A stretch of 64,000 nt of DNA from Mitsuaria chitosanitabida ATCC BAA-476 = NBRC 102408 (GTDB lineage Bacteria; Pseudomonadota; Gammaproteobacteria; Burkholderiales; Burkholderiaceae_C), in NCBI RefSeq assembly GCF_001598255.1, contig NZ_BCYP01000018.1, positions 248,001 to 312,000 on the forward strand, written 5' to 3'. Made by a program: the position numbers and the translations under genes. Below are positions 9,529 to 64,000 of this stretch, one piece after another (positions within the stretch are counted from its first letter, which is position 1; every line of letters begins with the position of its first letter). Under the pieces are notes generated by a model, which searched no databases, had not been told where the DNA came from, and saw only the letters and a program-made list of their open reading frames with translations.

Positions 9529-10139
9529 TTCTGATCAACCTGCTCCCGCACCGCGAGGAGAAGCGCAAGCGCCGCAAGGCCGCGTACTTCGTCGGCCTGG
9601 GAATGTCCTTCGTCGTGGGTCTGCTGATCTCGGGCGTCATCTACCTGCTGCTGCAGCAGATGACGGCCGCGCAGGTCGAGCGCAACGACTTCCTCAAGGC
9701 CGAGATCGGCAAGCTCGACGCGCAGATCAAGGACATCGCCACGCTGCGATCCGAGATCGATGCGCTGCGCGCTCGTCAACGCGCCGTCGAGGACCTGCAG
9801 AGCGACCGCAACACCCCCGTGCACCTGCTCAATGAGCTGGCCCGCTTCACGCCGGAAGGCGTGTACCTGCAGGCCGTGCGCCAGACCGCCAAGGCGGTGG
9901 TGATCAACGGCATCGCGGCCTCGAACGAGCGCGTGTCGGAGATGCTGCGCAACCTCAGCCACGCCGAATGGGTCGAGAACCCCGAGCTCGTCGAGATCAA
10001 GGTCGCGCCGGTGAACGCCAAGGACCCGCGCCGACTGTTCGACTTCGCGATCAAGGTGGCCATCAAGAGCGCCACGCCGGACGCCGCGGCGGGCGCCGCC
10101 AGCGCGCCCTCGGGCGCCAAGCCCGCGAAGAAGTCGTGA
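9525..10139 (+). CDS. pilN: Type IV pilus assembly protein PilN
   Basis: A 204-residue inner-membrane protein. The cytoplasmic N-terminus has INLLPHREEKRKRRK (residues 3-17), the PilM-binding motif, followed by a transmembrane helix (about 21-43), a coiled-coil stretch and a periplasmic ferredoxin-like domain (VYLQAVRQTAKAVVINGIA). The C-terminus is Ala/Lys-rich. It starts with GTG overlapping the pilM stop, which indicates translational coupling. It forms a heterodimer with PilO that links PilM to PilP/PilQ. Confidence 0.95.
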   Translation: MILINLLPHREEKRKRRKAAYFVGLGMSFVVGLLISGVIYLLLQQMTAAQVERNDFLKAEIGKLDAQIKDIATLRSEIDALRARQRAVEDLQSDRNTPVHLLNELARFTPEGVYLQAVRQTAKAVVINGIAASNERVSEMLRNLSHAEWVENPELVEIKVAPVNAKDPRRLFDFAIKVAIKSATPDAAAGAASAPSGAKPAKKS

Positions 10140-10146
10140 GGACCCC

Positions 10147-10854
10147 ATGGCCAATCTGAAAAACCTGGACCTCAACGCCTGGTTCGCTGACTTCTCCAGC
10201 CAGTTCCAGGACCTGAACATGAAGGAGCCGGGCCAATGGCCGCCGGCCCCGAAGTACCTGTCCTTCGTCGCGCTGGCGCTGGCGACCGTCGGCCTGGGCT
10301 GGCTGGCCGTGCTGTCGGACGAGCAGTCGGCGCTGGACGCCGAGCGCGACAAGGAACCCCACCTCAAGGAAGACTACGGCAACAAGCTCACGCAGGCGGT
10401 CAACCTGCCCGAGCTGCGCAAGCAGAAGAGCCAGGTCGAGGAATACGTGCTGCAGCTCGAGAAGCAGCTGCCGGGCAAGGCCGAGATGGACGCGCTGCTG
10501 TCGGACATCAACCAGGCCGGCCTGGGTCGTGGCCTGCAGTTCGAGCTCTTCCGCCCCGGCCAGGTCGCGATGCGCGACTACTACGCCGAGCAGCCGATCT
10601 CGATCAAGGTCACGGGCCGCTACCACGACATCGGTTCCTTCACCGCCGACGTGTCCAACCTGTCGCGGATCGTCACGCTGCACGACCTGAACATCGCCTA
10701 CCCGAACGTGTCGCCCAACCAGAACACGCCGCCCCGGACGGATTCGAACGCGACGCTGACGATGGAAGCGATCGCCCGGACCTATCGCTATCTCGACCCG
10801 ACCGAGGTCGAGGAGCAGAAGAAGGCCGCCGCGGCCGCGGAGAAGAAGAAATGA
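10147..10854 (+). CDS. pilO: Type IV pilus assembly protein PilO
   Basis: A 235-residue inner-membrane protein with a short cytoplasmic segment, one transmembrane helix (about 38-56), a coiled coil (ELRKQKSQVEEYVLQLEKQLPGKAEMDALLSDI) and a periplasmic domain with GLQFELFRPG and ITVKVTGRYHDIGSF-like strands, the standard PilO layout. The C-terminus is Lys/Ala-rich. It is seven nucleotides after pilN, and its stop overlaps the pilP start (ATGATG at 10851). Confidence 0.95.
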   Translation: MANLKNLDLNAWFADFSSQFQDLNMKEPGQWPPAPKYLSFVALALATVGLGWLAVLSDEQSALDAERDKEPHLKEDYGNKLTQAVNLPELRKQKSQVEEYVLQLEKQLPGKAEMDALLSDINQAGLGRGLQFELFRPGQVAMRDYYAEQPISIKVTGRYHDIGSFTADVSNLSRIVTLHDLNIAYPNVSPNQNTPPRTDSNATLTMEAIARTYRYLDPTEVEEQKKAAAAAEKKK

Positions 10855-50007: not shown

Positions 50008-50264
50008 GGATGTCGCGATCGGGTTGGGTTGCCGTGCCCCGACAGGCACGGAGCAGCCCTGCACTGTACCCCCATGGATGATGGGTCGACGGCGGGGCCG
50101 ACCCGGTGTCTCACCGAAGACGGACGCTTCGTGCAATATCGACTTCGGTCACTGGAAATTGAGCCCGAAATGTTGCAGCGTCATGCGCTTTCCCCAGGAT
50201 CGCGTCGCCACCGCCCCGCCAGGGTCCGGTCATCGCCCCGCCGCGGCCTCCCGTCATCGGGGCT

Positions 50265-51353
50265 TCATGACCCCGGGCTGGAGACGCGGATCTCCTCGCC
50301 CACGTCCTGGACCTGCAGGCCGAAGCCCGCGTGCAGCAGGCGCGCGAAGGCCTCGACATTGCCCGCCTCGAACACACCGCCGATGACGATGCGCTCGGCG
50401 GCGGCGTCCTGGATGACCAGCTGCTTCCTGCCGTAGCGGTTGAACTGGCGGGCGGCCTCGGCCAGCGTGACCTCGTTGAGCACCAGCTTGCCCTGCAGCC
50501 AGCCCAGCCGGGCGGAGAGCTGCTGCGGCGAGACGCGGGTGACGAGCAGGTTGTCGGCCTCCGCCACCGCGGTGTCGGCGCGCGCCAGCACGGTGGGGCG
50601 GCTGCTGGCCTGATCGGCCTGCACCTGGACGCGGCCTTCCAGCACGGTCACCCGCAGCTTGTCCCCGTCCCGCTGGAGCGAGAACTTGGTCCCCAGCACC
50701 GTCACCCGCTGCTTGCCGGCGTGGATGACGAAGGGGCGCTGCGCGTCGTGGGCGATGTCGAAGAAGGCCTCGCCGCTCTGCAGCCAGACCTGGCGGGATT
50801 GCGGCGTGACTTCGGTGCGCACCTGGGTGGCGGTGTTCAGGGTCAGTTGGGAGCCGTCGGCCAGCATCACCGATTCGCGCTGGCCGCGCGCGGTGGCGTA
50901 GTCGACGGTCTCCGGACGCGGACCGACGACCTGCAGCCCCAGCACCAGGGCCAGCGTCGCCAGGCCGACGCCGGCCGCGCCGCGCCACAGGGCGGGGCGC
51001 GCGGAGAGCCAGCCGGGCAAGCCGGCCGAGGTCCCACCGGACCGCCGACCAGTGCGCCAGCCCGACATCCCCGCGGGCTTGCGGCCGGCGGCCTCGCCCC
51101 GGACGTCCAGCCCCGGCGACTCGGGCGCGGCCAGCGGCGGCGCGCCGGGCTGCAGGGCCCGCAGCCGCTCGGCCCGCTGCCAGGCCTGCTCCAGGCGCAG
51201 GTAGGCGACGCGGTGCGCGGTCGACGCGGCGAGCCACGCGTCCAGCGCGGTCCGGCGCTCGGGCGGGAGTTGCCCGTTCGAGCGGTCGCGCTCCGCGATC
51301 CAGTCGGCCGCGCAGGTCTCGATGTCGTTCAGCTCGCTGTTCTTGTACTTCAT
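50265..51353 (-). CDS. FecR-type anti-sigma factor / transmembrane sensor
   Basis: A 362-residue FecR family regulator. The N-terminal DUF4880 segment has CAADWIAERDR and LDAWLAASTAHRVAYLRLEQAW. A linker leads to one transmembrane helix (about 123-144). The periplasmic FecR domain has DGSQLTLNTATQVR, WLQSGEAFFDIAHDAQRPFVIHAGKQRVTVLGTKFSL and LEGRVQV. The C-terminus resembles an STN-like sensor. It holds the neighbouring sigma factor until a TonB receptor signals. Its ATG overlaps the sigma factor stop (ATGA). The likely partner receptor is at 59283. Confidence 0.93.
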   Translation of the reverse strand: MKYKNSELNDIETCAADWIAERDRSNGQLPPERRTALDAWLAASTAHRVAYLRLEQAWQRAERLRALQPGAPPLAAPESPGLDVRGEAAGRKPAGMSGWRTGRRSGGTSAGLPGWLSARPALWRGAAGVGLATLALVLGLQVVGPRPETVDYATARGQRESVMLADGSQLTLNTATQVRTEVTPQSRQVWLQSGEAFFDIAHDAQRPFVIHAGKQRVTVLGTKFSLQRDGDKLRVTVLEGRVQVQADQASSRPTVLARADTAVAEADNLLVTRVSPQQLSARLGWLQGKLVLNEVTLAEAARQFNRYGRKQLVIQDAAAERIVIGGVFEAGNVEAFARLLHAGFGLQVQDVGEEIRVSSPGS

Positions 51354-51928
51354 TGTGTTTTCCGTCCCTTTCGCAGCGGAGCGGCGGCCGGCGTGGCGCC
51401 GCCGCTGCCTTGCCCCGCGGACTGCAGCGCCTGGGCCAGGGCGCGCACGCCCTTGGACACCTGGCGTTCCACCGTGTCCTCGGTGATGCCCATGCGCGCG
51501 GCGACCTCCCGCTGCGACAGACCTTCGATCTTGCGCAGCTCGATCACCTCGCGACATCGCGCGGGCAGCAGGTTCAGCGCCAGCTGCAGCAGCTTGAGCT
51601 CGCTGCGGGCGGCCAGATGGCGCTCGGGGCTGAGCTCGTCCAGCGTGGGCGCCAGCGCCTCGATGTCGGCATAGGTCTCGATGGACACGATCTGCGCGCG
51701 CCGGGCGCGGTCGATCAGCAGGTTGCGCGCGGTCGTCAGCAGGAAGGCCTGGGTGGACTCGGGCTTGCAGCGGGCGCAGCCGTCGTAGACGCGGGCATAG
51801 ACCTCCTGACGCAGGTCGGGGATCTCGTCCATGTCTCGCCAGTTGCGTCTGAGAAATCGTTCCAGCATGGCCTCCTGGGGCAGCACTTCATCCACGAACC
51901 AGGCGTTCAACTCATCGGTGTTCAACAC
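51350..51928 (-). CDS. FecI-type ECF RNA polymerase sigma factor
   Basis: A 192-residue ECF sigma factor. Region 2 has FLRRNWRDMDEIPDLRQEVYARVYDGC and FLLTTARNLLIDRARR; region 4 has LNLLPARCREVIELRKIEGLSQREVAARMGITEDTVERQVSKGVRAL. The order FecI then FecR with overlapping ATGA is standard for iron-starvation/FecI-like sigma factors, which switch on TonB receptor genes. GAGGA precedes the ATG at 51928. Divergent from dgcN. Confidence 0.94.
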   Translation of the reverse strand: MLNTDELNAWFVDEVLPQEAMLERFLRRNWRDMDEIPDLRQEVYARVYDGCARCKPESTQAFLLTTARNLLIDRARRAQIVSIETYADIEALAPTLDELSPERHLAARSELKLLQLALNLLPARCREVIELRKIEGLSQREVAARMGITEDTVERQVSKGVRALAQALQSAGQGSGGATPAAAPLRKGRKTQ

Positions 51929-52264
51929 GGCTCCTCATGCCGACGGGGCTCGCCACGATCTGTGGACGGTGTCCGCCTGTCATTCAAGACGAAGCGCGCA
52001 CGCAAATCCGGTATGGGCGGCGCAAAGATTCTGCGCCCGCCCACGCGGACCGGGGGAATACCCGAAGGCGGCGCGGAAGTCCGCCCGCCCCTCGTCTTCA
52101 AGGACAGCCGCCCCATGGCGTCCGAGCCCGGGCTCCGACCCGGGCACCGACCGCCGTACCGGCGGCCCGCGGCGCCCAAGCGCCCCTGTCCCCGATCGCC
52201 CCCGGGCGCCCCGGAGCGCTCGCGATCCTTCTTCGATTTCCTTTTCTCCGCGGATGGTTCCGAC
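51929..52264. promoter_or_regulatory. Divergent fecI / dgcN intergenic region
   Basis: A 336-nt gap with no credible gene. It holds several GC-rich hairpins: GGGCGGCGCA-aagattc-TGCGCCCGCCC (about 52016-52043, one bulge) and CCGCCGTACCGGCGG (about 52150-52165). No clear sigma-70 promoter is visible. Confidence 0.35.
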
Positions 52265-53293
52265 ATGCTTGTATTGCGAAAACCCTATCTGATCTTCCTC
52301 GGCGACGTGAGTTCCGCCGTCGATGCGAAGACCGCCTTCGGCGTCGCCGACTGGTGTCCCGAGGACGTGCTGGGCGAGCTCGCCTTCCCCGACGCCCGCG
52401 TCAGCACCGGCAAGCCGGCCATGACCATCGCCGAGGCGGCGGCCGCCGGCGCCGGCTCGCTGCTGATCGGCATCGCGCCGGTCGGCGGCAAGCTGCCGGT
52501 GCACTGGCTGCCGACCCTGCTGGACGCGGTGCGCGCGGGCCTGGACATCGTCAGCGGTCTCCACCAGCGCCTGGGCGATCTGCCCGGGCTGGCCGATGCC
52601 GCGCGCTCGGCCGGCGTGCAGCTGCACGACGTGCGCCACGGCGCCTGGCCGCGCGTCACCGGCACCGGCCGCAAGCGCACCGGTCGGCGCGTGCTGACCG
52701 TGGGCACCGATTGCGCGCTGGGCAAGAAGTACACCGCGCTGGCGCTGACCCGCGCGCTGCAGGCCCGCGGCCTGGCGGCCAGCTTCCGGGCGACCGGCCA
52801 GACGGGCGTGATGATCTCCGGCAGCGGCGTGGCGATCGACGCGGTGGTGTCCGACTTCGTCGCGGGCGTGGCCGAGCAGCTCTCGCCCGACAACGCGCCC
52901 GATCACTGGGATGTGATCGAGGGCCAGGGCTCGCTGTTCCATCCCGCCTATGCGGGCGTCACGCTGGGGCTGCTGCATGGCTCGCAGCCCGACGCGCTGG
53001 TGCTGTGCCACCACGTCGGCCGGGAGCACATCGCCAGCCTGCCGGACTTCCCGCTGCCGTCGCTGAGCGAGGCCATCGAGGCCTACCTGGGCGCCGGCCG
53101 CCTGACCAACGCGGCGGTGCGCTGTGTCGGCGTCAGCGTCAATTCGTCCGCGCTGAGCGAGGACGAGTGGCGCCTCTATCGCGAGCGGGTCGAGGCCGAG
53201 CTGGGCCTGCCCGTCGTCGATCCCCTGCGCGGCGGCGTCGAGCGCCTGGCCGATGCGATCCATTCTTCCGAGGAGTTGTCCCATGCTGCTTGA
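52265..53293 (+). CDS. dgcN: DUF1611 family protein, D-glutamate N-acetyltransferase DgcN
   Basis: A 342-residue DUF1611 protein. The N-terminus has FGVADWCPEDVLGELAFPDA and TGKPAMTIAEAAAAGA. A nucleotide-type loop, VLTVGTDCALGKKYTALAL (residues 143-161), is followed by FRATGQTGVMISGSGVAIDAVVSDFVAG and EGQGSLFHPAYAGVTLGLLHGS, hallmarks of the family. The characterised homologue acetylates D-glutamate as the first step of the DgcN-DgcA route to L-glutamate. The dgcA start lies inside its end (11-nt overlap), reinforcing the pairing. The start is ATG 52265; the long upstream extension of the frame is not real. Confidence 0.88.
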   Translation: MLVLRKPYLIFLGDVSSAVDAKTAFGVADWCPEDVLGELAFPDARVSTGKPAMTIAEAAAAGAGSLLIGIAPVGGKLPVHWLPTLLDAVRAGLDIVSGLHQRLGDLPGLADAARSAGVQLHDVRHGAWPRVTGTGRKRTGRRVLTVGTDCALGKKYTALALTRALQARGLAASFRATGQTGVMISGSGVAIDAVVSDFVAGVAEQLSPDNAPDHWDVIEGQGSLFHPAYAGVTLGLLHGSQPDALVLCHHVGREHIASLPDFPLPSLSEAIEAYLGAGRLTNAAVRCVGVSVNSSALSEDEWRLYRERVEAELGLPVVDPLRGGVERLADAIHSSEELSHAA

Positions 53294-54269
53294 ATGCACC
53301 CTGGCCGGCGAGAGCTGGCCCCTGCGCGAACCCTTCGAGATCTCGCGCGGCGTGATGACCGAGATCAAGGTGCTGGTCGTGCGCCTGCGCGATGAGCAGG
53401 GCAGGAGCGGCTATGGCGAGGCCACCGGCGTGCCCTACAAGGGCGAGACGCAGGCCACGATGGCGGCGCAGATCGAGGCCGTGCGCGGGCGGCTGCAGGT
53501 GGATCTGAGCGGCGCCGATCTGATGAGCCTGCTGCCGCCTGGAGGGGCGCGCAATGCGCTGGATTGCGCGTTGTGGGACCTGCGGGCGAAGCAGGCGGGC
53601 AGGGCGGCTTGGCAGATGGCGGGGCTGTCGCGGGTGGAGCCGGTGCTGACGGCCTACACGATCGGTCTGGGGAGCGAAGCGGATGTGCGGCGCAAGATTC
53701 GCGCGGCGCGGCATCTGCCGCTGCTCAAGCTGAAGGCGGATGGGACGCGGCATCTGGACATGGTGCGATTCGCGCGGGAGGAGCATCCGGAGGCGCGCCT
53801 GGTGATCGATGCGAATCAGGCGTGGAGTCGAGAACTGCTGGAGCGCATCCTGCCGGAGCTGCAGGCGCAGGGGGTGGAGCTGATCGAGCAGCCGGTGGAG
53901 CGTGGGCAGGATGCGGCGCTGGACGGGTTGGTCTCGCCGATTCCGCTGGCGGCGGACGAGTCGTGCGTGGATCGCGGCTCGTTGTCGGCGCTGGCGGGGC
54001 GGTATCAGTACGTGAACATCAAGCTCGACAAGTCGGGCGGGCTGACCGAGGGCTTGGCGTTGGCGGCCGAGGCGAAGAGGATGGGCTTCGGGCTGATGGT
54101 GGGGAATATGGGCGGCACGTCGTTGGCGATGGCGCCGGCGCATCTGATCGCGCAGGAGTGCGCGTATGTGGATCTGGACGGGCCGATGCTGATGAGCGCG
54201 GATCGGTCGCCGGCGATGCGGTATGAGGGGGCGATGCTGGAGGGGGCGGAGGTGGGGCTCTGGGGCTGA
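53283..54269 (+). CDS. dgcA: N-acetyl-D-glutamate racemase DgcA / dipeptide epimerase family
   Basis: A 328-residue enolase-superfamily enzyme of the muconate-lactonising subgroup. The catalytic Lys pair lies in KLKADG (Lys149, Lys151), metal ligands are in VIDANQAW (Asp176), ELIEQPV (Glu202) and LAADESC (Asp225/Glu226), and a second acid/base Lys in NIKLDKSGG (about 247-250). Similar proteins epimerise L-Ala-D/L-Glu dipeptides; linkage to DUF1611 instead points to N-acetyl-D-Glu racemisation. Both substrates contain D-Glu. The start is ATG 53283, within the dgcN end. Confidence 0.88.
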   Translation: MLLECTLAGESWPLREPFEISRGVMTEIKVLVVRLRDEQGRSGYGEATGVPYKGETQATMAAQIEAVRGRLQVDLSGADLMSLLPPGGARNALDCALWDLRAKQAGRAAWQMAGLSRVEPVLTAYTIGLGSEADVRRKIRAARHLPLLKLKADGTRHLDMVRFAREEHPEARLVIDANQAWSRELLERILPELQAQGVELIEQPVERGQDAALDGLVSPIPLAADESCVDRGSLSALAGRYQYVNIKLDKSGGLTEGLALAAEAKRMGFGLMVGNMGGTSLAMAPAHLIAQECAYVDLDGPMLMSADRSPAMRYEGAMLEGAEVGLWG

Positions 54270-54297
54270 GACCTTTCGATCCCCTCGCCCGCGTTAG

Positions 54298-54450
54298 CCC
54301 CTCGCCCGCTTGCGGGAGAGGGGTTGGGGTGAGGGCCGGTGCAGACAGCGAGCGCTACTGGCCTTCGCAAGCGCCATCGGGATTCGAAGAGGGCTGAGGC
54401 TCTGGTGTGCCACGGCCCTCACCCCAACCCCTCTCCCACTCCGTGGGCGA
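54298..54450. repeat. Inverted intergenic repeat pair between convergent dgcA and the FAD oxidoreductase gene
   Basis: Two arms, 54314-54337 and 54414-54437, are perfect 24-nt reverse complements (GGGAGAGGGGTTGGGG... against its complement), about 76 nt apart. Each arm also folds locally (CCTCGCCCGC-tt-GCGGGAGAGG on the left). Similar sequence occurs at 5476-5506. This looks like a dispersed GC-rich intergenic repeat acting as a convergent terminator. Confidence 0.7.
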
Positions 54451-54454
54451 GGGG

Positions 54455-55648
54455 CTAAGAACGGCCCATCAATCGGGTCGGCGACAACATCGACGCGCTC
54501 AACCCGAAATCCACCAGCCGCTGCGGCAACCGCCGCCCCAGCGCCAAGGCCGCGCAAGCCTCCCCCATCGCGGCGCAAGTCTGGATCCCATAGCCGCCTT
54601 GCCCGGCCAACCAGAAGAACCCCGCCGCCTCCTCATCGAATCCCCCCACCAATCCCCCATCCGCGACGAAGGACCGCAGTCCCGCCCAGGTGTGGCTGGG
54701 CCGCCGGATCGTCATCGTCGTCATCTCCTCGATCCGATGAATGGCCAGCGCGATGTCCAACTCCTCCGGCTGCACATCGTGCGGCGCCACCGGATCGGCA
54801 TTCGCGGGCGACCCCAGCAGCAAGCCCGCATCCGGCTTGATGTACCAGTCCTCGTCCGCCCCGAACACCAGCGGCCAGGCATGCGTGTCCATCCCGGCCG
54901 GCGCCGCGAACATGAACGCCGAGCGCCGTCGCGGCTCCAGCCCGATGGGCCGCACGCCCGCCAGTCCCGCGATCACGTCGGCCCAAGCCCCGGCCGCATT
55001 GATCAGCACCGGCGCCTGGTAGACCTGCCCGCCGGCCCGCACGCGCCAGTCGGCGCCATGCCGCTCGATCGCCGTGACCTCCGCGTCGCAGACCAGCCGC
55101 CCGCCTTCCCGCCGCAGCTCGCGCAGAAAGCCCTGATGCAACGCATGCACGTCCATGTCGACCGCCTCGGGCTCATGGATCGCGCCGTGCAGCAGCTCGC
55201 GCCTCAGCACCGGCACCATCGCGCAGGCCTGGTTGGCGCTGAGCCGATGCGCGTTCGGCGTGATGGCCCGCAGCACCTCCCAGTGATGCTCGTAGGGCTC
55301 GCGCTGCGCCTCGGTGGCGACGAAGAGCGCGCCCCGCGGCGTCAGCAGGGGATGGTCGGAGTAACCCGCCGGCGGCTGCTCGAAGAAGGCGCGGCTGGCG
55401 CGCGTCAGGGCGCGCACCTGCGGATTGCCGTAGCTCTCCATGAACAGCGCGGCCGAGCGGCCCGTCGCGTGGTAACCGGGCTGGCTCTCGCGTTCCAGCG
55501 CGATGGTGCGCGCGTGCGGTGCCAGCCAGCGCGCGACCGAGGCGCCCGCGATGCCGCCACCGATCACCAGGCAGTCGGCCGAGGTGATGGCCGACCCCGA
55601 GGTCTCGCTCCCGGCGATCTCGCGTGGGGTGATGTCCGACGAATTCAT
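54455..55648 (-). CDS. FAD-dependent oxidoreductase, D-amino-acid (D-arginine) dehydrogenase-like
   Basis: A 397-residue DAO-family flavoenzyme. The dinucleotide motif is CLVIGGGIAGASVARWLA (residues 26-43), followed by GYHATGRSAALFMESYGNPQVRALTRASRAFF, which resembles D-arginine dehydrogenase DauA. LINAAGAWAD and the C-terminal FFWLAGQGGYGIQTCAAMGE complete the FAD fold. The family oxidises D-amino acids to keto acids. Its ATG overlaps the M81 peptidase stop (ATGA), so it is the third gene of a tight operon. Substrate preference is inferred. Confidence 0.85.
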   Translation of the reverse strand: MNSSDITPREIAGSETSGSAITSADCLVIGGGIAGASVARWLAPHARTIALERESQPGYHATGRSAALFMESYGNPQVRALTRASRAFFEQPPAGYSDHPLLTPRGALFVATEAQREPYEHHWEVLRAITPNAHRLSANQACAMVPVLRRELLHGAIHEPEAVDMDVHALHQGFLRELRREGGRLVCDAEVTAIERHGADWRVRAGGQVYQAPVLINAAGAWADVIAGLAGVRPIGLEPRRRSAFMFAAPAGMDTHAWPLVFGADEDWYIKPDAGLLLGSPANADPVAPHDVQPEELDIALAIHRIEEMTTMTIRRPSHTWAGLRSFVADGGLVGGFDEEAAGFFWLAGQGGYGIQTCAAMGEACAALALGRRLPQRLVDFGLSASMLSPTRLMGRS

Positions 55649-57261
55649 GCGTTCGCTCCGTCCTGGGTGGCGAAGCCGTGCGGATCGGCCACGCGCGGCC
55701 AGTAGTCGAGGTCGCGCACGCGGTAGGGCAGCCGGGCGAAGTCCATGTCGATCGCGCCGGGCGTGGTGACGTAGAGGATCTCCTTGGCCAGCGGCGCGAA
55801 CTGCGCATGGAAGTGCTGCGTCGACTTGACGACGATCACCCGCTTGGCGCTCAGGTCCATGCCCAGGCCGGTGAAGACCGTCGGCGAGAAGGTCTGGCTG
55901 CGCACGCTGACCAGCACGATGTCCAGCCCGCCACTCGTCCGCACCCAGACGCTGGGGCCCAGCGGCGCGATCTCGTCGTTCGAGTTCAGCCCGATCTGCT
56001 CATGGTGGTCGAGCATCACCATCACCGTGACGTCCAGGTCGACCGGCGTCCCCGAGGCCGGTCCGCACTTGCCGCCCAGTCGCAGCGCGATGCGCGCGCC
56101 CACGCCGGCATCACGGCACAGCTGGATCCCGCCGAGATCCCAGAACGCGCCGATCGCCGCGTCGCTCACCTGGCGGGCCAGCAGGGCTTGCAGGATGAAG
56201 CTGCTGTCGCTCATCGCGCCGCCGCCGGCGTTGTCCGCGATGTCGGCGATGACGACCGGCCCACCGACGACCTGGGCGGCGCGGTCCAGCGCCGCGTCGA
56301 TCTCCAGCATCGGCGTGGCGGTCTGCTCGCGCAGCGCCCAGAACTCGCGGCCCAGCTGCTCGGCCAGCGAGGCGGCGAGCGCCGCATCGTTGTCGGTGAC
56401 GACCCACAGCCGCGCGCCCGATTCGGGCACGTCGCCCCAGGGGAAGCCGTGACCCAGCGACACCGACAGCACGCCGGGCTGCTGCTCCACCGCCTGCATG
56501 CGCCGGACGAAACCGGCCATGGGCTCGCGCGTCGTGTGCCACAGGCCGACCATCTTGCAATCGAACATCGCCGCGGTGGGTTTCACCCGACCGGCGCTCG
56601 CGTCGAGCACGATGCGCAGCAGCTCCTGCAGGCGCGGCGTCGCGTCGATGTGCGGGTACTCCTTGTAGGCAATGATCACGTCCGCCGAGCGCTGCATCAG
56701 CGCGGTGTAGTGGCAGTGCAGATCGAGCTCCACGCCGATGGGCACGGCGGGGCCGACGATCTCGCGCACGCGGGCGATGAGGTCGCCCTCGCAGTCGTCG
56801 TAGCCGTCCGCCACCATCGCGCCGTGCAGGATCAGGATCACGCCGTCCACCGGACCGGACGCGCGCAGGTCGGCCAGGATGTCGTCGCGCAGCCGCTCGT
56901 AGACGGCGCGCACCGTGCGGCCCAGCGGCTGGGCGAAGGCGCTCAGGCTCTCGATCAGCTCATGGCCCTCGGCGCCGAGCAGGCGGCGCAGCTCGACCAT
57001 CGAGCCCCCGATCCCCAGCGGGTCCCGCGTGCTGGCGTCGCCGCGGTGGATGCCGTACTCCTCGAAGCAGCCCCAGCCCGTCGGCGCGGCGGCGTAGGTG
57101 TTGGTCTCGGTGGCCAGGAAGGCGGCAAAGATCGTCTTCTTGCCGCTCGCGCTCGTGGTGCTTGTCGTGCTGCTCATGCTGGTCATGCTGCTCTCGCTCT
57201 CTTTGTTCTTGCTGGTCGCGCTGGTGCTGCTGGCGATGCTGGTCGTGCGCCCGCTCTTCAT
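55645..57261 (-). CDS. M81 family metallopeptidase (MlrC/microcystinase C-like)
   Basis: A 538-residue zinc peptidase of MEROPS family M81. Putative ligands are Glu52 (ATETNTY), His146 (ILHGAMV), Asp180 and His182 (ELDLHCHY) and His204 (YPHIDATP); their spacing equals that reported for microcystinase MlrC as I recall it (56, 150, 184, 186, 208). NAGGGAMSDS and SLGHGFPWGD are also family motifs. The first about 40 residues are a Ser/Thr-rich low-complexity extension absent from typical members. ATG 57261 has GGAGG upstream and overlaps the preceding gene stop; internal ATGs at 57186 and 57177 are alternatives. No signal peptide, so cytoplasmic. Confidence 0.9.
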   Translation of the reverse strand: MKSGRTTSIASSTSATSKNKESESSMTSMSSTTSTTSASGKKTIFAAFLATETNTYAAAPTGWGCFEEYGIHRGDASTRDPLGIGGSMVELRRLLGAEGHELIESLSAFAQPLGRTVRAVYERLRDDILADLRASGPVDGVILILHGAMVADGYDDCEGDLIARVREIVGPAVPIGVELDLHCHYTALMQRSADVIIAYKEYPHIDATPRLQELLRIVLDASAGRVKPTAAMFDCKMVGLWHTTREPMAGFVRRMQAVEQQPGVLSVSLGHGFPWGDVPESGARLWVVTDNDAALAASLAEQLGREFWALREQTATPMLEIDAALDRAAQVVGGPVVIADIADNAGGGAMSDSSFILQALLARQVSDAAIGAFWDLGGIQLCRDAGVGARIALRLGGKCGPASGTPVDLDVTVMVMLDHHEQIGLNSNDEIAPLGPSVWVRTSGGLDIVLVSVRSQTFSPTVFTGLGMDLSAKRVIVVKSTQHFHAQFAPLAKEILYVTTPGAIDMDFARLPYRVRDLDYWPRVADPHGFATQDGANA

Positions 57262-58940
57262 GCATGCGCCTCCTCGCGAATGAAGCGCAGGCGGCTCAGG
57301 CGCGGCGCGTCCAGGCGCAGGCCGACGACCCGGTCGCCTTCGCGATCGATGTTGACGATGCTGGCGCCGCCCATGCCGGCGAACAGCCCATCGGTGGGCA
57401 GGGCCAGCATCACGTCGGACGACAGCGGTTCCAGGCGATAGGCGCTGCGGCCGTGCGGGCCGTGCAGCTGCACGACGATGCGAGTGTTCGCGCCGTCCCC
57501 CTCCAGCTCGACCGGGACCTCGATGCCCAGGTCCGGAACGCGGTAGCGGCCGGCCAGCGACGCCGCCAGCGACGCGACACTCGGCGCCTGCTCGGGCAGC
57601 AGCGTGCAACGCAGCAGCCGGCCACCGTCGTCGAGGGTCAGGACTTGCGGCGCGGTCTCGCTCGCGAGCTCCTCGAGCGACAGGGCCAGCGGGCTCAGCG
57701 CGCTGTCCTCGCAGGGCACGACCGCCGCGCCGTCGATCTGGCGCAGCGGTATGCCGCGACCCCCGAGCCAACTCAGCGCGAGCTTGCCGCCGGCGTCCTC
57801 GAGACCGAACACCGCGCCGGTCTCCGGCGAGTGATAGCGGCGACCCAGCAGCGCCGCATGGGGCTCGGCCGGGACGTGGACGGACGGCTCGCCCAGCGCA
57901 TCGCCGAGCAGCGCATCGATGATCTGGAAGGCCAGCGCCACCGGCGAGACGGGCGCGCCGTTGACCAGGATGACGATGTCCAGCCCGTGCGCGGGGACGG
58001 TGATCATCTGCGTGGTCGCACCCAGCACCGCGCCCGAATGCTGGATCACCTCGACGCCGCGGTAGTCGTGACGGATCAGGCCCAGCGCGTAGGGCAGGCG
58101 CACGCCGGTGGACAGGGTCGGCCGCTCGATCATGCTCGCCCAGCTGGCGGCGCTGCCCACGAGCTTGCTCGGGCTGCGCAGATGCGCCAGCCAGCGCAGC
58201 ATGTCGTCGACCGTGGAGACCAGCGAGCCGCTGCCGCGCAGCTCGCTCGGATAGATGCCGCGCCGCAGGCCGCCGCCGACCGAGGCGGGCTGCGCCTGGT
58301 ACTGCATCGCCATGCCGGGGCGGATCTCGAGGTCGCTGGTCAGCGACTCGGTGTCGTGCATGCGCAGCGGCGCGAAGATGCGCTCGCGCAGGAAGTCCTC
58401 GAAGCTGCGGCCGCTCAGGCGCTCGACCACCCGCGCCAGCAACTGGTAGCCGGTGTTCGAGTACATCATCCGCGTGCCCGGCTCGAAGTTGAGCTCGCGG
58501 TTGGGATCGGCGATGGGCTGGGACCAGTCCACCGTGGGCAGCAGGGCCAGGCCTTGCGCGACCGAGGGCAGGTCGGTACGCCATCCCCCCAGGTGCTGCA
58601 TCAGCTGGCGCAGCGTCGGGCCGGCCGGATGCAGCACGGTCAGCTCCGGCAGATGACGGTAGACGAGGTCGTCGATGTCCAGCAGGCCGTCCTCGGCCAG
58701 CAGCAGCACGGCCAGGCAGGTGAACTGCTTGCTGGTGGAGGCGATGCGCACGCGCGTGCGCGGCGACATGGTCACGCCCTGCTCGATGCTGGCCAGCCCG
58801 ACACCGCGTCGGTAGAGGATCCTGCCGGCGCGCGCGATGCCCACGACCAGGCCCGGCGCGTCGCTGCGATTGAAGGGCTGGAGCAGGGCGTCGACGGCCG
58901 CCAGGCCGGTCGGTTGCGGGGTGTCGGGGGTGGGGGTCAT
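57258..58940 (-). CDS. Serine hydrolase, beta-lactamase/MlrB-like
   Basis: A 560-residue class C beta-lactamase-fold hydrolase. The nucleophile motif is Ser68-Thr-Ser-Lys71 (ASTSKQFT), the second motif is Tyr160-Ser-Asn162 (MMYSNTGY), and an HxG motif occurs in QHSGAVLG near residue 305. The C-terminal 200 residues form an extra beta-rich domain. No signal peptide is seen, so it probably works in the cytoplasm on small peptides, as D-aminopeptidases and MlrB do. The start is ATG 58940; 16 extra upstream residues lack support. First gene of the minus-strand operon with M81 and the FAD enzyme. Confidence 0.88.
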   Translation of the reverse strand: MTPTPDTPQPTGLAAVDALLQPFNRSDAPGLVVGIARAGRILYRRGVGLASIEQGVTMSPRTRVRIASTSKQFTCLAVLLLAEDGLLDIDDLVYRHLPELTVLHPAGPTLRQLMQHLGGWRTDLPSVAQGLALLPTVDWSQPIADPNRELNFEPGTRMMYSNTGYQLLARVVERLSGRSFEDFLRERIFAPLRMHDTESLTSDLEIRPGMAMQYQAQPASVGGGLRRGIYPSELRGSGSLVSTVDDMLRWLAHLRSPSKLVGSAASWASMIERPTLSTGVRLPYALGLIRHDYRGVEVIQHSGAVLGATTQMITVPAHGLDIVILVNGAPVSPVALAFQIIDALLGDALGEPSVHVPAEPHAALLGRRYHSPETGAVFGLEDAGGKLALSWLGGRGIPLRQIDGAAVVPCEDSALSPLALSLEELASETAPQVLTLDDGGRLLRCTLLPEQAPSVASLAASLAGRYRVPDLGIEVPVELEGDGANTRIVVQLHGPHGRSAYRLEPLSSDVMLALPTDGLFAGMGGASIVNIDREGDRVVGLRLDAPRLSRLRFIREEAHA

Positions 58941-59282
<342 letters not shown>

Positions 59283-61715
59283 ATGAAGAAATGCGTACGC
59301 GGTCAGTCGCTCCGTCGACTGGCCATTGCCTGCACCCTGGCCGTCGCGGCCGCCACCGTCCATGCGCAGAGCCGCGATTTCGACGTCGCCGCGGGCGACC
59401 TGAAGAGCGCGCTCGATGCCTACATCGCCCAGGCGGGCGTCCAGCTGATCTACAAGGTCGAGGACCTCCGGGGCCTGTCGACCAAGGGCCTGAAGGGCAA
59501 GCTCTCGCCCGAGGACGCGCTGGCGCGTCTGCTGGAGGGCACGCGGCTGAAAGTGCGTCGCGACGAGAGCGGCGCGATGGTGCTGTTCGTCGGGACGCCC
59601 GAGGATCCGAAGCCGCGCGCCGATGTGTCGACGCTGGACTCGGTCGTGGTCAGCGCGGCGCGCCGCCGCGAGCCGGTGCGTGAGGTGCCGCTCAAGGTCG
59701 ACGTGCTGCAGACCGAGGCGCTGGAGCGCAACGGCGCCCGCGAGTTGGCCGACTACGTGGCCAACCAGCCCGGCGTCACGCTGACGCACGGCGGCGCCTA
59801 CGCCGGCGCGCTGAGCATCCGCGGACTTGCGACGGCCTCGGTCGGCGCGTCCTCGGTCGGCGTCTATGTCGACGACGTGGCCACCGGCTCCAGCGCCCCC
59901 TACGGCCTGGGCGCGATGACGCCGCTGGACATGGGCCTGCTGGACCTGCGCCACATCGAGATCCTGCGCGGTCCGCAAGGCACGCTGTACGGCGCCGGCG
60001 CGATGGGCGGCCTGATCAAGTACGTGACCAACGAGCCGGACACCGGCGAGTTCTCCGGCAACGCGCGCGTCGCGCTGACCTCCACCCGCTACGGCGGCAT
60101 GGGCCACACGGTCAACGGCGTCGTGAACGTCCCGATCAAGCAGGATGTGGCGGCGGTGCGCGTCGCGGCTTACACCACGCGCTTCGGCGGCTACGACGAC
60201 ACCGTCGGCGTGGCCGCGCAGACCAACGTCAATCGCGGCACGACCACCGGCGCGCGGATCTCGGCCTTGCTGACGCCGGCCCGCAACCTGACGATGCGTC
60301 TGACCTTGACCTCCCAGGAGGCCACGCGCGTCGGCAGTGACTACGAGGACCTGAACCTGGTCACCGGCCAGCCCACGCTGGGCGAGCGTCTGCGCAAGCT
60401 GGACGCCGAGGAGCCGAACAGCGTCCGCACCCATCTGCTGGGCCTGGACATCGAGTACGACATGGGCTGGGCACGGCTGAACGCCATCACCTCGGTGCAG
60501 GACGTGAAGCTGCACGCGCTGTCGGACGCGTCGGCCAGCATCCTGCCGGTGCTGGTGCGCGCCGGCCTGCCCGCGACCTCGGTCTGGGGCGACAGCCGCG
60601 GCAAGCAGCATCGCGTCAGCCAGGAATTCCGCCTGACCTCGCGCGCCTCGCGCGACATCGAATGGCTGGCCGGCCTGTACATCAACCGCGAGCGCTCGAG
60701 CGTGGACGGCGGCATCCGATACGCGACCGCCGCCGGCCCCGGCTCGCTCAAGCTTTACGAGACGACCAAGCCCGCGACCTACCGCGACCTCGCGGCCTAC
60801 GGCGACGTGACCTGGCACGCCACGCCCGCGCTGGCGCTGACGGGCGGCGTGCGTGTGGGCCGCATGGAGCAGCGCTTCACCAACACCTCCGACGGGCTGC
60901 TCTCCGGCGGCGCCTCGTCCAACGGCGGCGAGTCGAAAGAGACCGCCACGACCTGGCTGGCCACCGCCGGCTACAAGATCGACGCGCAGAACTCGGTCTA
61001 CACCCGCGTCGCCAGCGGCTACCGGCCCGGCGGCCCGAACGGTTTGCTGCCGACGACCTCGCCGACCATCAAGCCGATGTTCAAGTCGGACTCGCTGTGG
61101 AGCTACGAGGCCGGCTACAAGGCGGCGCTGCTGGACCGCACGCTGGTGATCGATGCCGCGCTCTACGACATCGAGTGGACCGACATCCAGCAGATCGTCT
61201 CCGACGGCAGCATCTTCAGCTTCTTCACCAACGCGGGCAAGGCGCGCATCCGCGGCGCGGAGCTGGCGCTGAGCTGGCTGCCCAGCGCGGCCTGGCGCTT
61301 CGATGGCGCGCTCTCGCTGATCGACGCCAAGCTGCGCACCGACGCCTCGGGCCTGGGCGGCCATGCGGGCGACCGGCTGCCCGACACCGCGCGCGTGAGC
61401 GCGTCGCTGGCGGCCACGCGCAACCTCGAGCTCTTCGGCCACCGGGCCTATGTCGGCGCCAACCTGCGCCACACGGGTGAGCGCAATGCTGGCTTCCCCG
61501 GCAGCACGGTGGCGCGGCCCTACCGCCTGCCGGCCTACACGGTGCTGGGCCTGCAGGCCGGCATCGACTACGAGCGCTTCCAGCTCTCCGCCTACGTGCG
61601 CAACCTGGCCAACAGCCGCGGCCTGGCCGCCGTCGCCGTCGCCTCCGCCACCGCCGGCAAGGCGGTGGTGGTGGAGCCGCGCACCATCGGCGTGGCCGTC
61701 AACGTCCCCTTCTGA
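59283..61715 (+). CDS. TonB-dependent outer-membrane receptor with N-terminal signalling (STN) domain
   Basis: An 810-residue receptor. The signal peptide ends near VHAQ (residue 28-29). The STN domain spans about 31-103 (FDVAAGDLKSALDAYIAQAGVQLIYKVEDL...), which in transducers contacts FecR in the periplasm. The plug has SIRGLATASVGASSVGVYVDDV and IEILRGPQGTLYGAGAMGGLIKYVTNEP. The barrel ends with Phe (NVPF), the usual outer-membrane sorting signal. The start is ATG 59283. It is followed after two bases by an MFS gene. The substrate is unknown; the gene context suggests a peptide rather than a siderophore. Confidence 0.93.
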   Translation: MKKCVRGQSLRRLAIACTLAVAAATVHAQSRDFDVAAGDLKSALDAYIAQAGVQLIYKVEDLRGLSTKGLKGKLSPEDALARLLEGTRLKVRRDESGAMVLFVGTPEDPKPRADVSTLDSVVVSAARRREPVREVPLKVDVLQTEALERNGARELADYVANQPGVTLTHGGAYAGALSIRGLATASVGASSVGVYVDDVATGSSAPYGLGAMTPLDMGLLDLRHIEILRGPQGTLYGAGAMGGLIKYVTNEPDTGEFSGNARVALTSTRYGGMGHTVNGVVNVPIKQDVAAVRVAAYTTRFGGYDDTVGVAAQTNVNRGTTTGARISALLTPARNLTMRLTLTSQEATRVGSDYEDLNLVTGQPTLGERLRKLDAEEPNSVRTHLLGLDIEYDMGWARLNAITSVQDVKLHALSDASASILPVLVRAGLPATSVWGDSRGKQHRVSQEFRLTSRASRDIEWLAGLYINRERSSVDGGIRYATAAGPGSLKLYETTKPATYRDLAAYGDVTWHATPALALTGGVRVGRMEQRFTNTSDGLLSGGASSNGGESKETATTWLATAGYKIDAQNSVYTRVASGYRPGGPNGLLPTTSPTIKPMFKSDSLWSYEAGYKAALLDRTLVIDAALYDIEWTDIQQIVSDGSIFSFFTNAGKARIRGAELALSWLPSAAWRFDGALSLIDAKLRTDASGLGGHAGDRLPDTARVSASLAATRNLELFGHRAYVGANLRHTGERNAGFPGSTVARPYRLPAYTVLGLQAGIDYERFQLSAYVRNLANSRGLAAVAVASATAGKAVVVEPRTIGVAVNVPF

Positions 61716-61717
61716 TC

Positions 61718-63187
61718 ATGACGCTCTTCGCAACGACCGCCGACCCGGCGGCTTCCCCCTCGCACGTCCCTACGACGGCGATTCCGGCCCGCAAGGCCGG
61801 GGCCGCGTCCTGGTACACGCTGGCCGTGCTGCTGGTGGCGACCATCCTCGGATCGGTCGACGCGATGCTGGTCACGCTGCTGACCGAGCCGATGCGGGCC
61901 ACGCTCTCGCTCAGCGACACCCAGATCGGGATGCTCAAGGGCGGCGGGCTGGTGCTGTTCACCGGGCTGGCGACGCTGCCGCTGGGCTGGCTGGGTGACC
62001 GCTACGACCGCCGCGTGGTGCTGGCCGCCTGCGTGCTGGTCTGGAGCGCGGCGACCGGGCTGCGCGGCACGGCGATGGACTACACCATGCTGTTCGTCGC
62101 GTCGATCGGACTGGGCGTGGGCGAGGCCGGGCTCGGCCCCATCACCAACAGCCTGATCCCCGATCTGTTCCCGCGCGCCCAGCGGGTCCTGGCCAACGCG
62201 ATCTTCGGCATCTCGTCGATCTTCGGCAGCGCGCTCGGCGCGGTACTGGGCGGCAGCATCGTGCTGGCGGTGGAGAAGTCCCGTCATCTGATGCCGGCCG
62301 GCTGGCAGGGCTACGAGACCTGGCGCCTGACCTTCTTCGTGATGGCCTTCGTCGGACTGCCGGTGATCCTGCTGGTGCTGACCATCCGCAGCGCGCGCGG
62401 CAAGGCCGCCGCCGGCTATGAGCCGCCGACCGTCGAGTCCGCCGAGGGGCATGCCAGCGGCGCGAGCGCTGGATCCGCCACCCGCGCGACCGCCACCGTG
62501 GCCGCGGTCGGCGCGGACGGCGCCGAGCTGGGCGGCATCAGCTTCCGCGACTACCTGCGCGCGCATTGGCGCACGCTGGCCTGTCTGGTGGCGGGGTCCG
62601 GCCTGGCCTCGGTGGGGCTGAGCTCCATCGGCAGCTGGATCCCCATCGTCGCGGCGCGTCAGTTCGGCATCCAGCCGGCGCAGCTGGGGCAGGGCATCGG
62701 CATCGCGGTGATGGCCGGCACGCTGGTCGGCGGCGTGCTGGGCGTCAAGGCGATGCGCGTGGCGCGGCGCCGCGTCGGCCTGGCCGCGCCGGTGCGGGTG
62801 CTGGTGCTGGGCTACGCCGCCGCCGCGCTGATCTCGATCGGGCTGCTGTTCGTTCGCTCCGCCACCGACGTGTTCGTGCTGCTGTCCATGCTGCTGGTGC
62901 CGCTGATCTGCGGCGCGGTGGTGCTGCCCAACGTGCTGCAGGAAGTCGCGCCGCCGCACCTGCGGGCCCGCGTGATCGGCGTGCTGTCCATGGGCACGCT
63001 GCCCTTCGCGGTGCTGGGTCCGCTGGCCATCGGCGTGATCTCCGACGCGGTCAGGAACATCCCCAACGGCCTGGCCATGGCCATCGTGGCCGCGACGCTG
63101 ACCGGCTGCCTGTCCGGCGCCTTGCTGCTGCGCGCCACCGAACCCGCCTTCGTGCGGCTGCTCAAGAAAGTCAACGCCACCTCATGA
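61718..63187 (+). CDS. MFS transporter
   Basis: A 489-residue major facilitator with about 12 hydrophobic segments. Motif A is LGWLGDRYDRRVV after helix 2, and GLGVGEAGLGPITNSLIPDLFPRAQR follows helix 4. A long cytoplasmic loop (about residues 225-275, Ala/Thr-rich) separates the halves. The spinster-like pattern suggests organic substrate transport. It is tightly coupled to the TonB receptor upstream and overlaps the next gene by four bases, so it may move the imported compound across the inner membrane. Confidence 0.9.
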   Translation: MTLFATTADPAASPSHVPTTAIPARKAGAASWYTLAVLLVATILGSVDAMLVTLLTEPMRATLSLSDTQIGMLKGGGLVLFTGLATLPLGWLGDRYDRRVVLAACVLVWSAATGLRGTAMDYTMLFVASIGLGVGEAGLGPITNSLIPDLFPRAQRVLANAIFGISSIFGSALGAVLGGSIVLAVEKSRHLMPAGWQGYETWRLTFFVMAFVGLPVILLVLTIRSARGKAAAGYEPPTVESAEGHASGASAGSATRATATVAAVGADGAELGGISFRDYLRAHWRTLACLVAGSGLASVGLSSIGSWIPIVAARQFGIQPAQLGQGIGIAVMAGTLVGGVLGVKAMRVARRRVGLAAPVRVLVLGYAAAALISIGLLFVRSATDVFVLLSMLLVPLICGAVVLPNVLQEVAPPHLRARVIGVLSMGTLPFAVLGPLAIGVISDAVRNIPNGLAMAIVAATLTGCLSGALLLRATEPAFVRLLKKVNATS

Positions 63188-64000
63188 CTGCGATGAACAC
63201 CTCGACCTCCGCTTCCCGCCCCGGCGCTTCGTCGTCAACCGCCACTTCCGCGGCGGCCTCGTCCGCGGCGGTCGAGGCCGCCAACGCCGCCGCCGCGACC
63301 GCCTCCACCAAGGCCGAGCTGGTCAAGACCATCGACGCGGCGCTGGAACCGCTGTGCCGCGCCGACGAGCCCGGCATGGTGGTCGGCGTCAGCCGCAACG
63401 GCGAGCTGCTGTACCGCCGCGGCTTCGGCCTGGCCAGCCTGGAACTCGGCGTGATCAACACGCCGCGCACGCGCATGCGGCTGGCCTCGACCAGCAAGCA
63501 CTTCACCGCGCTGGCCATCCTGCTGCTGGCCGAGGACGGCAAGCTGGACATCGACGACATGGCGCGCCGCCACCTGCCCGAGCTGCCCGAGCTCAGCGCC
63601 GCCGGGCCGACCTTGCGCCAGCTGATGCAGCACACCGGCGGCTGGCGAGGTCATGAGGAACTCTGGGCCTGGGCCAACGGCCTGAACCCGCAGCCGGCGG
63701 GCATCAGCCTGTCGATGATGGCGCGGCAGCGCGAGCTCAACTACGAGCCCGGCACCCGCATGATCTACAGCAACGGCGGCTACCTGATGCTGGCGCGCAT
63801 CGTCGAGCGGGTCAGCGGGCTGAGCTTCGCCGAGTTCCTGCGCCAGCGCATCTTCGAGCCGCTGGGCATGCTGGACACCGAGTCGACCGCCAACGTGCTC
63901 GACGTGCGCGAGGGGCTGGCGGGGCTCTACCTGCCGGTGCTCGGCGCCGCGCCCGGCGCGCGCGGGCGCTGGACCCGCGCGACCTATCCCACGGAGTTCG
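63184..64000 (+). CDS. Second serine hydrolase, beta-lactamase/MlrB-like (3' end outside window)
   Basis: The frame is open from ATG 63184 to the window end (272 codons visible). The nucleophile motif is Ser102-Thr-Ser-Lys105 (ASTSKHFT) and the second motif is Tyr195-Ser-Asn197. It is clearly paralogous to the 57258-58940 gene (shared LRQLMQH-GGWR, LLAEDG-LDIDD, NYEPGTRM-YSN). The N-terminal 45 residues are an Ala/Ser/Thr-rich low-complexity stretch with no signal peptide. Its ATG overlaps the MFS stop (ATGA), making it part of the receptor operon. Confidence 0.88.
   Translation, partial: MTAMNTSTSASRPGASSSTATSAAASSAAVEAANAAAATASTKAELVKTIDAALEPLCRADEPGMVVGVSRNGELLYRRGFGLASLELGVINTPRTRMRLASTSKHFTALAILLLAEDGKLDIDDMARRHLPELPELSAAGPTLRQLMQHTGGWRGHEELWAWANGLNPQPAGISLSMMARQRELNYEPGTRMIYSNGGYLMLARIVERVSGLSFAEFLRQRIFEPLGMLDTESTANVLDVREGLAGLYLPVLGAAPGARGRWTRATYPTEF

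Follow-up and report, generated by a model that had tools for sequence, protein, structure and literature searches.

A twelve-gene block of Mitsuaria chitosanitabida as a probable unit for the use of oligopeptides with D-residues

Peptides with D-residues (cyanotoxins, lipopeptides, siderophores, cell-wall pieces) withstand ordinary peptidases, and how does a bacterium then recycle them? This question is raised by a stretch of 64,000 nucleotides from Mitsuaria chitosanitabida (the window, bases 248001-312000 of contig C18 in a 5.82-Mb draft genome), towards the end of which begins a block of twelve genes, located between pilB (window 48286-50136) and tRNA-Pro/ispB (L005:9014-9090 and 9107-10237; an L005 coordinate plus 60000 gives the window-equivalent position). 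The block of ~19 kb extends from fecR (window 50265) to an amidase gene, its last 4.9 kb lying beyond the window on the same contig, up to L005:8869 (window-equivalent 68869). Judging from its sequence, the block is probably an acquired catabolic unit for oligopeptides with D-residues, which other bacteria or cyanobacteria most likely make by nonribosomal synthesis; the evidence points to this class of substrates and names no molecule. If this is true, the locus would reveal how such peptides get recycled.

What is the block made of? On the reverse strand it starts with fecR and the gene of an extracytoplasmic function (ECF) sigma factor, followed by dgcN-dgcA on the forward strand and, again in reverse, by the genes for a serine hydrolase, a metallopeptidase and a flavoenzyme (S12a-M81a-flavoenzyme). 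Divergent from the latter, on the forward strand, are the genes for a TonB receptor, an MFS transporter, S12b, M81b fused to an alpha/beta-hydrolase domain, and an amidase. Stops and starts overlap or adjoin at fecI/fecR, S12a/M81a, M81a/flavoenzyme, receptor/MFS and MFS/S12b, which is consistent with two operons plus fecIR. A preliminary description of the window had named a FecI/FecR pair, a TonB receptor with a signalling (STN) domain, an MFS transporter, two S12 enzymes, an M81 enzyme, a flavoenzyme and DgcN-DgcA, and profile searches located all of them near the expected places. Their contiguity was borne out as well, with the block running past the window end with the rest of S12b, the M81 fusion and the amidase, and the "D-amino-acid dehydrogenase-like" flavoenzyme could be refined to the DauA family. 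The STN domain stays below its Pfam cut-off (23.8 vs 28.4 bits), and residues ~31-98 of the receptor match the solved signalling domains 2a02, 6ovk and 2m5j.

Does the block behave as one unit? We located pilB and ispB in 16 same-genus genomes, the window's own included. Their distance is 18,973 bp in the window genome and 285-705 bp in five others (G011, G003, G007, G005, G001), which are without the ~18.8-kb block at this site. In the flank alignment to G011, 55 bp replace the segment from window 50174 to L005:8957, i.e. the junctions lie just outside fecR and the amidase gene, so that dgcN-dgcA is within the unit. As sites are empty in relatives and the same gene set is found on contigs other than that of pilB in Burkholderiales bacterium C2 (L007) and Paucibacter PLA-PC-4 (L008), we infer that the block is one acquired, mobile or replaceable unit. 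Its genes include no integrase, and its G+C content (0.70-0.72 vs 0.66-0.70 alongside) is not decisive as a sign of foreign base composition. In 5/16 genomes pilB and ispB are far apart or on separate contigs, 2/16 gave no match at the thresholds used, and M81 relatives in five other same-genus genomes sit away from the pilB/ispB sites. A tRNA-Pro attachment site with a duplicated end was considered and rejected, no exact tRNA repeat of 10-18 bp being present near the left junction. The gap between pilB and ispB measures 3.4, 6.8 and 11.0 kb in G013, G008 and G012 (contents not annotated); with stretches of such different size (e.g. G012:C26:31731-42696 and G008:C22:445439-452264) the site may be a hot spot.

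Are the parts kept together elsewhere? Co-occurrence in relatives had been set as a test beforehand, and the block passed it: the core is kept in Burkholderiales, the full set in two relatives only. The gene content of 78 related loci, picked by similarity to the window's M81, was mapped by tblastn. For a sample independent of neighbourhood, we screened 120 family genomes with PF07171 and found M81 in 32 of them; from the 70 matches four own ones and two fragments were left out, and the remaining 64 merged into 58 loci in 31 genomes other than the window's. Forty regions, mostly 60 kb away, served as controls (38 from the sample genomes, two from the window's genome). Near M81 we found S12 in 15/58 loci (0/40 controls), a TonB receptor in 16/58 (1/40), MFS in 8/58 (0/40), a DAO flavoenzyme in 11/58 (0/40), DgcA in 6/58 (0/40) and DgcN in 2/58 (0/40), counts that overstate independence as the loci are related. 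None of the 44 M81 loci missing S12, the TonB-dependent receptor (TBDR) or both has a Dgc gene, and since 43 of the 58 loci are without S12, only one part of the M81 family shows the association. This part can be recognized in two trees (frames with a stop or below 380 aa left out): with FastTree and 147 M81 rows, some of them near-copies, the window M81s fall into a 32-row clade (96), 30 rows of which have S12 and TBDR neighbours; IQ-TREE with 58 rows agrees, giving an inner clade of 15 rows (96) and a group of 31 (93), 29 of which have such neighbours, the two exceptions, L017 and L020, lying on short contigs (3.2 and 6.0 kb).

Thus, a core of TonB receptor, S12 and M81, often with MFS, recurs across Burkholderiales beside D-amino-acid enzymes. 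Burkholderiales bacterium C2 has the same set as the window plus a third S12, and Paucibacter PLA-PC-4 has it so far as the stretch reaches, which ends inside fecI. FecI-FecR-TBDR-MFS-S12-M81::alpha/beta-hydrolase is found in 7/8 Variovorax loci, L021 being without FecI/FecR in the tblastn map, and in Roseateles toxinivorans DSM 16998 (L009) the same series is followed by DgcA-DgcN; other orders occur elsewhere. The window genome itself has four M81 genes in three settings, with TBDR and S12 at each. Eight flank frames of L011 and L008, picked by length, matched no family, and a literature search, outside which most subscription journals lie, returned no title describing an M81/TonB/D-peptide locus. 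The two further S12/M81/TonB loci of the window genome lie at G000:C36:83-92 kb and G000:C16:149-157 kb (L114, L115); one has MFS and a DauA-type enzyme, the other a DgcA relative. Seven Variovorax loci (L010, L011, L013-L015, L022, L029) show a second TonB receptor match at ~2,000-2,700, pointing away from fecI and with its own ECF motif.

How might the genes be regulated together? The sequences upstream of many receptors in these loci have ACCGGA(A/T)-N14-CGTCT in common. In the 5.8-Mb window genome the exact motif occurs three times, all in the block, before fecI, S12a and the receptor (58, 47 and 45 bp), and in four whole genomes (window, R. toxinivorans, C2, PLA-PC-4) 8/8 sites are inside M81 blocks; the backward control pattern has 13 matches in the same genomes (locations not shown). 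The motif is present in 14/32 M81 loci with S12 and TBDR vs 0/101 other M81 loci and 0/40 controls, and in 14/15 distinct loci whose FecI reaches 65% identity or more vs 0/3 with a distant FecI (L009, L110, L116). As such loci were used to derive the motif, finding it in them is partly built in, which does not hold for its absence elsewhere in the genomes. All parts for cell-surface signalling are present, i.e. the ECF sigma factor, FecR with a transmembrane helix and STN on the receptor. The shared motif suggests that fecI and the two divergent operons form a regulon under control of the ECF sigma factor via a private promoter. For S12a we favour ATG 58940 as start over TTG 58988, as the latter overlaps the promoter motif. 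The divergent motifs are 198 bp apart in the window and ~50 bp in L007 and L008. A hexanucleotide repeat between them could vary the promoter spacing; it was not found in L007/L008, the two closest relatives.

FecI/FecR/STN-receptor sets classically serve siderophores, many peptide siderophores contain D-residues, and hydroxyaspartate occurs in siderophores. Thus, receptor and MFS protein might import a foreign peptide siderophore, which the hydrolases would open in the cytoplasm to free iron. The best solved relatives of the receptor, i.e. the pesticin receptor, the ferripyoverdine receptor, a PQQ transporter and FecA, are in line with this, as are its best NCBIfam match, TonB-siderophor (144.2 bits, below the cut-off of 223.5), and a gene in the Variovorax loci that matches 3-hydroxy-D-aspartate aldolase (123.5 bits, cut-off 690). 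However, a crude scan with an E. coli consensus and without positive control detected nothing Fur-box-like above background, either before fecI or in the spacer of the divergent operons (9 and 10/19 vs a background mean of 9.7); longer Variovorax stretches reached up to 11/19. Moreover, the block genes include no ferric reductase or siderophore gene, and a catabolic D-amino-acid dehydrogenase, DgcN-DgcA and an amidase would suit feeding better than iron release. We therefore regard xenosiderophore use as rather unlikely and return to the breakdown of D-residue peptides for nutrition.

Which D-amino acids would be released? The flavoenzyme is 59% identical over 371 residues to the D-arginine dehydrogenase DauA of P. 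aeruginosa. Five of the seven named active-site residues of DauA (H48, Y53, E87, R222, E246, Y249, R305; PMC11193025) are kept, i.e. Y53, R222, E246, Y249 and R305, whereas H48 is changed to L and E87 to A; in none of 27 other aligned homologues is either of them kept (rows with stops or below 300 aa left out). As H48 and E87 are replaced, D-Arg is probably not the main substrate, and the enzyme is best classed as a predicted DauA family member rather than as a D-arginine dehydrogenase. DauA oxidises D-amino acids except D-Asp and D-Glu, and DgcN is, in the available part of its description, the enzyme on which a pathway for acidic D-amino acids and the corresponding amides hinges (PMC12363236), so that a DauA-type enzyme and DgcN-DgcA jointly would cover nearly all D-residues. 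At least one D-amino-acid enzyme is found in 26/32 S12+TonB M81 loci vs 13/95 other M81 loci (M81 frames with a stop or below 380 aa and five repeat loci removed). In 8/8 Variovorax loci the M81 fusion is followed by a gene for a pyridoxal phosphate (PLP) enzyme resembling D-Ser dehydratase/3-hydroxy-D-Asp aldolase (in L015 the match is in two frames). The PLP enzyme of L011, the only one scanned, has Ala_racemase_N and D-ser_dehydrat domains, and the nearest NCBIfam family, the sole match at 1e-8, is the aldolase mentioned above. The same 8/8 loci have no Dgc gene. D-Glu, proposed earlier as the best-supported residue, hence stands as a likely product, owing to DgcN-DgcA; with the DauA-type enzyme and the Variovorax loci without Dgc it is not the signature of the system.

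D-Glu also brings peptidoglycan into play, and the substrate could be a muropeptide with L-Ala, D-Glu and D-Ala that is scavenged from cell-wall fragments. DgcN-DgcA acts on D-Glu, D-Ala peptidases belong among the S12 enzymes, and DgcA has L-Ala-D/L-Glu epimerase among its relatives (240 bits to 1jpd). Yet DgcA scores above the DgcA cut-off (419 vs 400) and below that of the epimerase (257 vs 343), the twelve block genes include no NagZ, LdcA or AmpG, and the Variovorax loci do without Dgc, rendering muropeptides an unlikely substrate.

Which enzymes would cut the D-residue peptides? S12a aligns over residues 11-506/518 of the D-aminopeptidase profile PRK13128, and in a PDB search 1ei5, the D-aminopeptidase, ranks second. 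MlrB was modelled on 1ei5, with S77, K80, Y171, N173, D245 and H307 as key residues (PMC11070527, in the part available). The counterparts of its SxxK, YxN and His residues, i.e. S68, K71, Y160, N162 and H301, do not vary among 21 S12 proteins. The same is true of D245 and D246, and assigning the Asp of MlrB needs the MlrB sequence: with the window M81 or MlrC as query, nothing of at least 60% identity turned up on plasmids, so MlrB was compared via published residues only. M81a reaches 305 bits to MlrC (7ylq), and all five zinc-site residues given for MlrC (Glu, His, Asp, His, His; PMC12474180, accessible portion) are retained in M81a and M81b. In M81b the peptidase reads on, in a single frame, into an alpha/beta-hydrolase domain, the GHSLGG motif of which is invariant in ten aligned fusions. 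Eleven other loci have the same fusion (L007-L011, L013-L015, L021, L022, L029; L001 and L091 in the fusion listing are the block itself), and in L012 the two domains are separate. In a simple hydropathy scan none of the S12, M81 and amidase proteins has an N-terminus resembling a signal peptide, so hydrolysis is probably cytoplasmic, following MFS import. At its N-terminus (window 57159-57261) M81a has a low-complexity, Ser/Thr-rich extension with an 18-bp repeat; either the true start lies further into the gene, or the N-terminus has expanded locally.

Microcystin contains D-Glu, and in the block an MlrB-type S12, an MlrC-family M81 and an MFS protein adjoin one another. The block itself might thus be the betaproteobacterial version of mlrBCD and serve the breakdown of microcystin or nodularin, all the more as R. 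toxinivorans, an mlr-negative degrader in the consulted parts of PMC8068134 and PMC5127115, has several such loci. But the window M81s were rejected as MlrC orthologues, as they form a clade apart from MlrC in both trees, and they score 313 and 301 bits against the MlrC profile NF041767 with its cut-off of 999. No PF02517 (CPBP/MlrA-family) protein is among the block's genes, the five copies of the genome sitting on other contigs. The S12s have no visible signal peptide, unlike MlrB, which is periplasmic and has one (PMC12474180, same portion), and the block MFS protein shows Pfam MFS_1 plus a weak OATP match, with no PTR2 as in MlrD. Finally, the R. toxinivorans M81 closest to MlrC is a different, separate gene (L110:16095-17558, 51% identical), which pairs with MlrC at 99 in both trees. 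A microcystin pathway is thus very unlikely, and microcystin, suggested initially as one possible substrate, finds no support for this block, which has neither an MlrC orthologue nor an mlrA homologue.

R. toxinivorans deserves attention in its own right. As far as the available text of PMC8068134 and PMC5127115 goes, it breaks down microcystins, anabaenopeptins and aerucyclamides as well as several peptides of other than cyanobacterial origin, all this in the absence of mlr genes, which was judged by PCR (PMC5127115), and mlr-independent microcystin degradation is described there as unexplained. The genome contains seven M81 matches, six of them full genes and one a fragment, a number equalled by one other of the 120 genomes (seven, apparently full). 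L109, L112 and L113 have the TBDR-MFS-S12-M81 core with DgcA. At L112:17199-17766 a second M81 lies broken in pieces behind an S12 remnant, perhaps a decayed double arrangement. The MlrC-like M81 of L110 appears, at a strict E<=1e-160, in 1/299 family genomes, namely R. toxinivorans itself, with up to five candidates scored in each genome. It is part of an island on contig C16 of strain DSM 16998 (L110:5172-19809, L111:1425-13959), a candidate microcystin island, which also contains a second M81, a TonB receptor, parts of an Opp-type ABC transporter, an Rce1-like protease, an S58 peptidase and an M55 D-aminopeptidase, along with a flavoenzyme, a CoA-transferase, a thiolase and an acyl-CoA dehydrogenase. 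By eye the residues of the Rce1-like protein fit the family; its sole PDB match is Rce1 (4cad), and it is not confirmed as MlrA.

Several points weigh against the block being a unit for D-residue peptides. S12, TonB and MFS are broad families, S12 and a TonB receptor occur together in just 14/58 family-sample M81 loci (8/58 with MFS too), and the full set with DgcN, DgcA and DauA is confined to the window, L007 and L008. L027 has no exact motif, although its FecI is 69% identical, and L009 and L116, with a distant FecI, have none either; no copy in its own orientation was found at dgcN-dgcA, the place of which in the regulon is therefore unproven. DgcN stays under its curated cut-off (450.7 vs 480 bits), whereas DgcA is above its own (419.1 vs 400), and with H48 and E87 lost the specificity of the flavoenzyme may differ from that of DauA. 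In 6/32 S12+TonB M81 loci no D-amino-acid enzyme was seen, and the D-Ser-dehydratase-like gene joined this count after its sighting in one locus, leaving 19/32 without the PLP enzyme. Could the genes be unrelated metabolic neighbours by mere chance? Every family involved is common and broad, and just three genomes show the full set, but the empty-site comparison, the conserved core, the gene fusion and the genome-unique promoter motif speak so clearly against it that we give chance hardly any credence.

We propose that an extracellular ligand binds to the TonB receptor, the STN domain of which would signal via FecR to the ECF sigma factor, and that the latter would turn on fecI itself and the two divergent operons through the private promoter. 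The peptide would pass the outer membrane via the receptor and the inner one via the MFS protein. In the cytoplasm two S12, two M81, the alpha/beta-hydrolase domain and the amidase, of which families and catalytic residues can be named, may then cut it. From the published specificities of the homologues, most of the released D-amino acids would be processed by the DauA-type dehydrogenase and the acidic ones by DgcN-DgcA. This order of sensing, import, hydrolysis and conversion had been outlined in the preliminary description and is supported by the conserved core, the presence or absence of the unit as a whole and the shared motif.

Going beyond this block, we tentatively suggest that such loci are an unrecognised family, "D-peptide utilisation loci", doing for peptides what polysaccharide utilisation loci do for polysaccharides, and composed of FecI/FecR, an STN receptor, MFS, S12, M81, often alpha/beta-hydrolase-fused, and exchangeable D-amino-acid enzymes matched per substrate. 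Possibly, though this is as doubtful as the concept as a whole, their multiplication in R. toxinivorans together with the separate MlrC-like-M81 island would explain how this mlr-negative bacterium degrades microcystins and many other cyanopeptides. M81, S12, TonB receptor and ECF motif would make up a searchable signature, and candidate genes could be named for mlr-independent microcystin degradation in Paucibacter/Roseateles toxinivorans.

Table 1. Features of the block (window coordinates, or window-equivalent ones beyond the window end).
Feature	Position	Strand	Remarks
FecR-type anti-sigma/transducer, 362 aa	50265..51353	-	PF04773 79.5 bits; one hydrophobic segment near residue 125 (hydropathy)
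FecI-like ECF sigma factor	51350..51928	-	TIGR02937 87.2 bits; 4-bp overlap with fecR
ECF-type promoter motif ACCGGAT-N14-CGTCT	51987..52012	-	58 bp upstream of fecI
DgcN-like D-Glu N-acetyltransferase (DUF1611)	52265..53293	+	NF041892 450.7 bits, cut-off 480; 348 bits to 7xrj
DgcA, N-acetyl-D-Glu racemase (enolase superfamily)	53253..54269	+	NF042940 419.1 bits, cut-off 400
DauA-family FAD D-amino acid dehydrogenase	54455..55648	-	483.5 bits to 3nyc
M81 metallopeptidase M81a	55645..57261 (start 57261 or 57186)	-	PF07364 286 bits, PF07171 165.5 bits
S12 serine hydrolase S12a	57258..58940	-	PF00144 207.8 bits; PRK13128 profile 143.8 bits, cut-off 443
ECF-type promoter motif of S12a-M81a-flavoenzyme operon	58988..59013	-	47 bp from ATG 58940
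TCGGTG/TCGTTG hexanucleotide repeat, 12.5 copies	59020..59094	+	between the two divergent promoter motifs
ECF-type promoter motif of receptor operon	59212..59237	+	45 bp from ATG 59283
TonB-dependent receptor, N-terminal signalling (STN) domain	59283..61715	+	PF00593 119 bits, PF07715 67.5 bits, PF07660 23.8 bits
MFS inner-membrane transporter	61718..63187	+	PF07690 121 bits; 9 hydrophobic segments (simple scan)
Second S12 serine hydrolase S12b	63184..64000, on to window-equivalent 64986	+	L005:3184-4986
M81b::alpha/beta-hydrolase fusion, outside window	window-equivalent 65062-67440	+	L005:5062-7440
Amidase, outside window	window-equivalent 67448-68869	+	L005:7448-8869
Inserted segment	50174 to window-equivalent ~68957 (L005:8957)	.	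ends beside tRNA-Pro/ispB

How does the block compare with known systems? With FecI-FecR-FecA it shares an ECF sigma factor, a FecR-domain regulator, a STN-bearing TonB receptor and a common motif before fecI and the receptor; unlike there, the motif also precedes hydrolase and D-amino-acid genes, and the crude scan showed no Fur-box-like site. Polysaccharide utilisation loci likewise sense, import, depolymerise and catabolise one polymer class from one locus and occur in several paralogous copies per genome, but in the block peptide hydrolases replace glycoside hydrolases and MFS replaces SusCD. A DauA-family dehydrogenase and DgcA and DgcN-like enzymes are in common with dauBAR D-arginine catabolism and the DgcN-DgcA route, whereas in the block they are set beside peptide uptake and hydrolysis, H48 and E87 are changed, and no dauB is among the twelve genes. 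Like mlrABCD of sphingomonads, the block has a D-aminopeptidase-type S12, M81 with the same zinc-site residues and an MFS transporter; unlike mlrABCD, it is without an MlrA-type CPBP protease, its M81s are non-orthologous to MlrC and its S12s show no visible signal peptide. In addition, it has a TonB receptor, ECF sigma/FecR, a DauA-type enzyme, DgcN-DgcA, an amidase and the M81::alpha/beta-hydrolase fusion. Taken together, the block is no mlr family member, but functionally it resembles an mlrBCD set that has been coupled to a TonB/ECF sensor and to the catabolism of D-amino acids.

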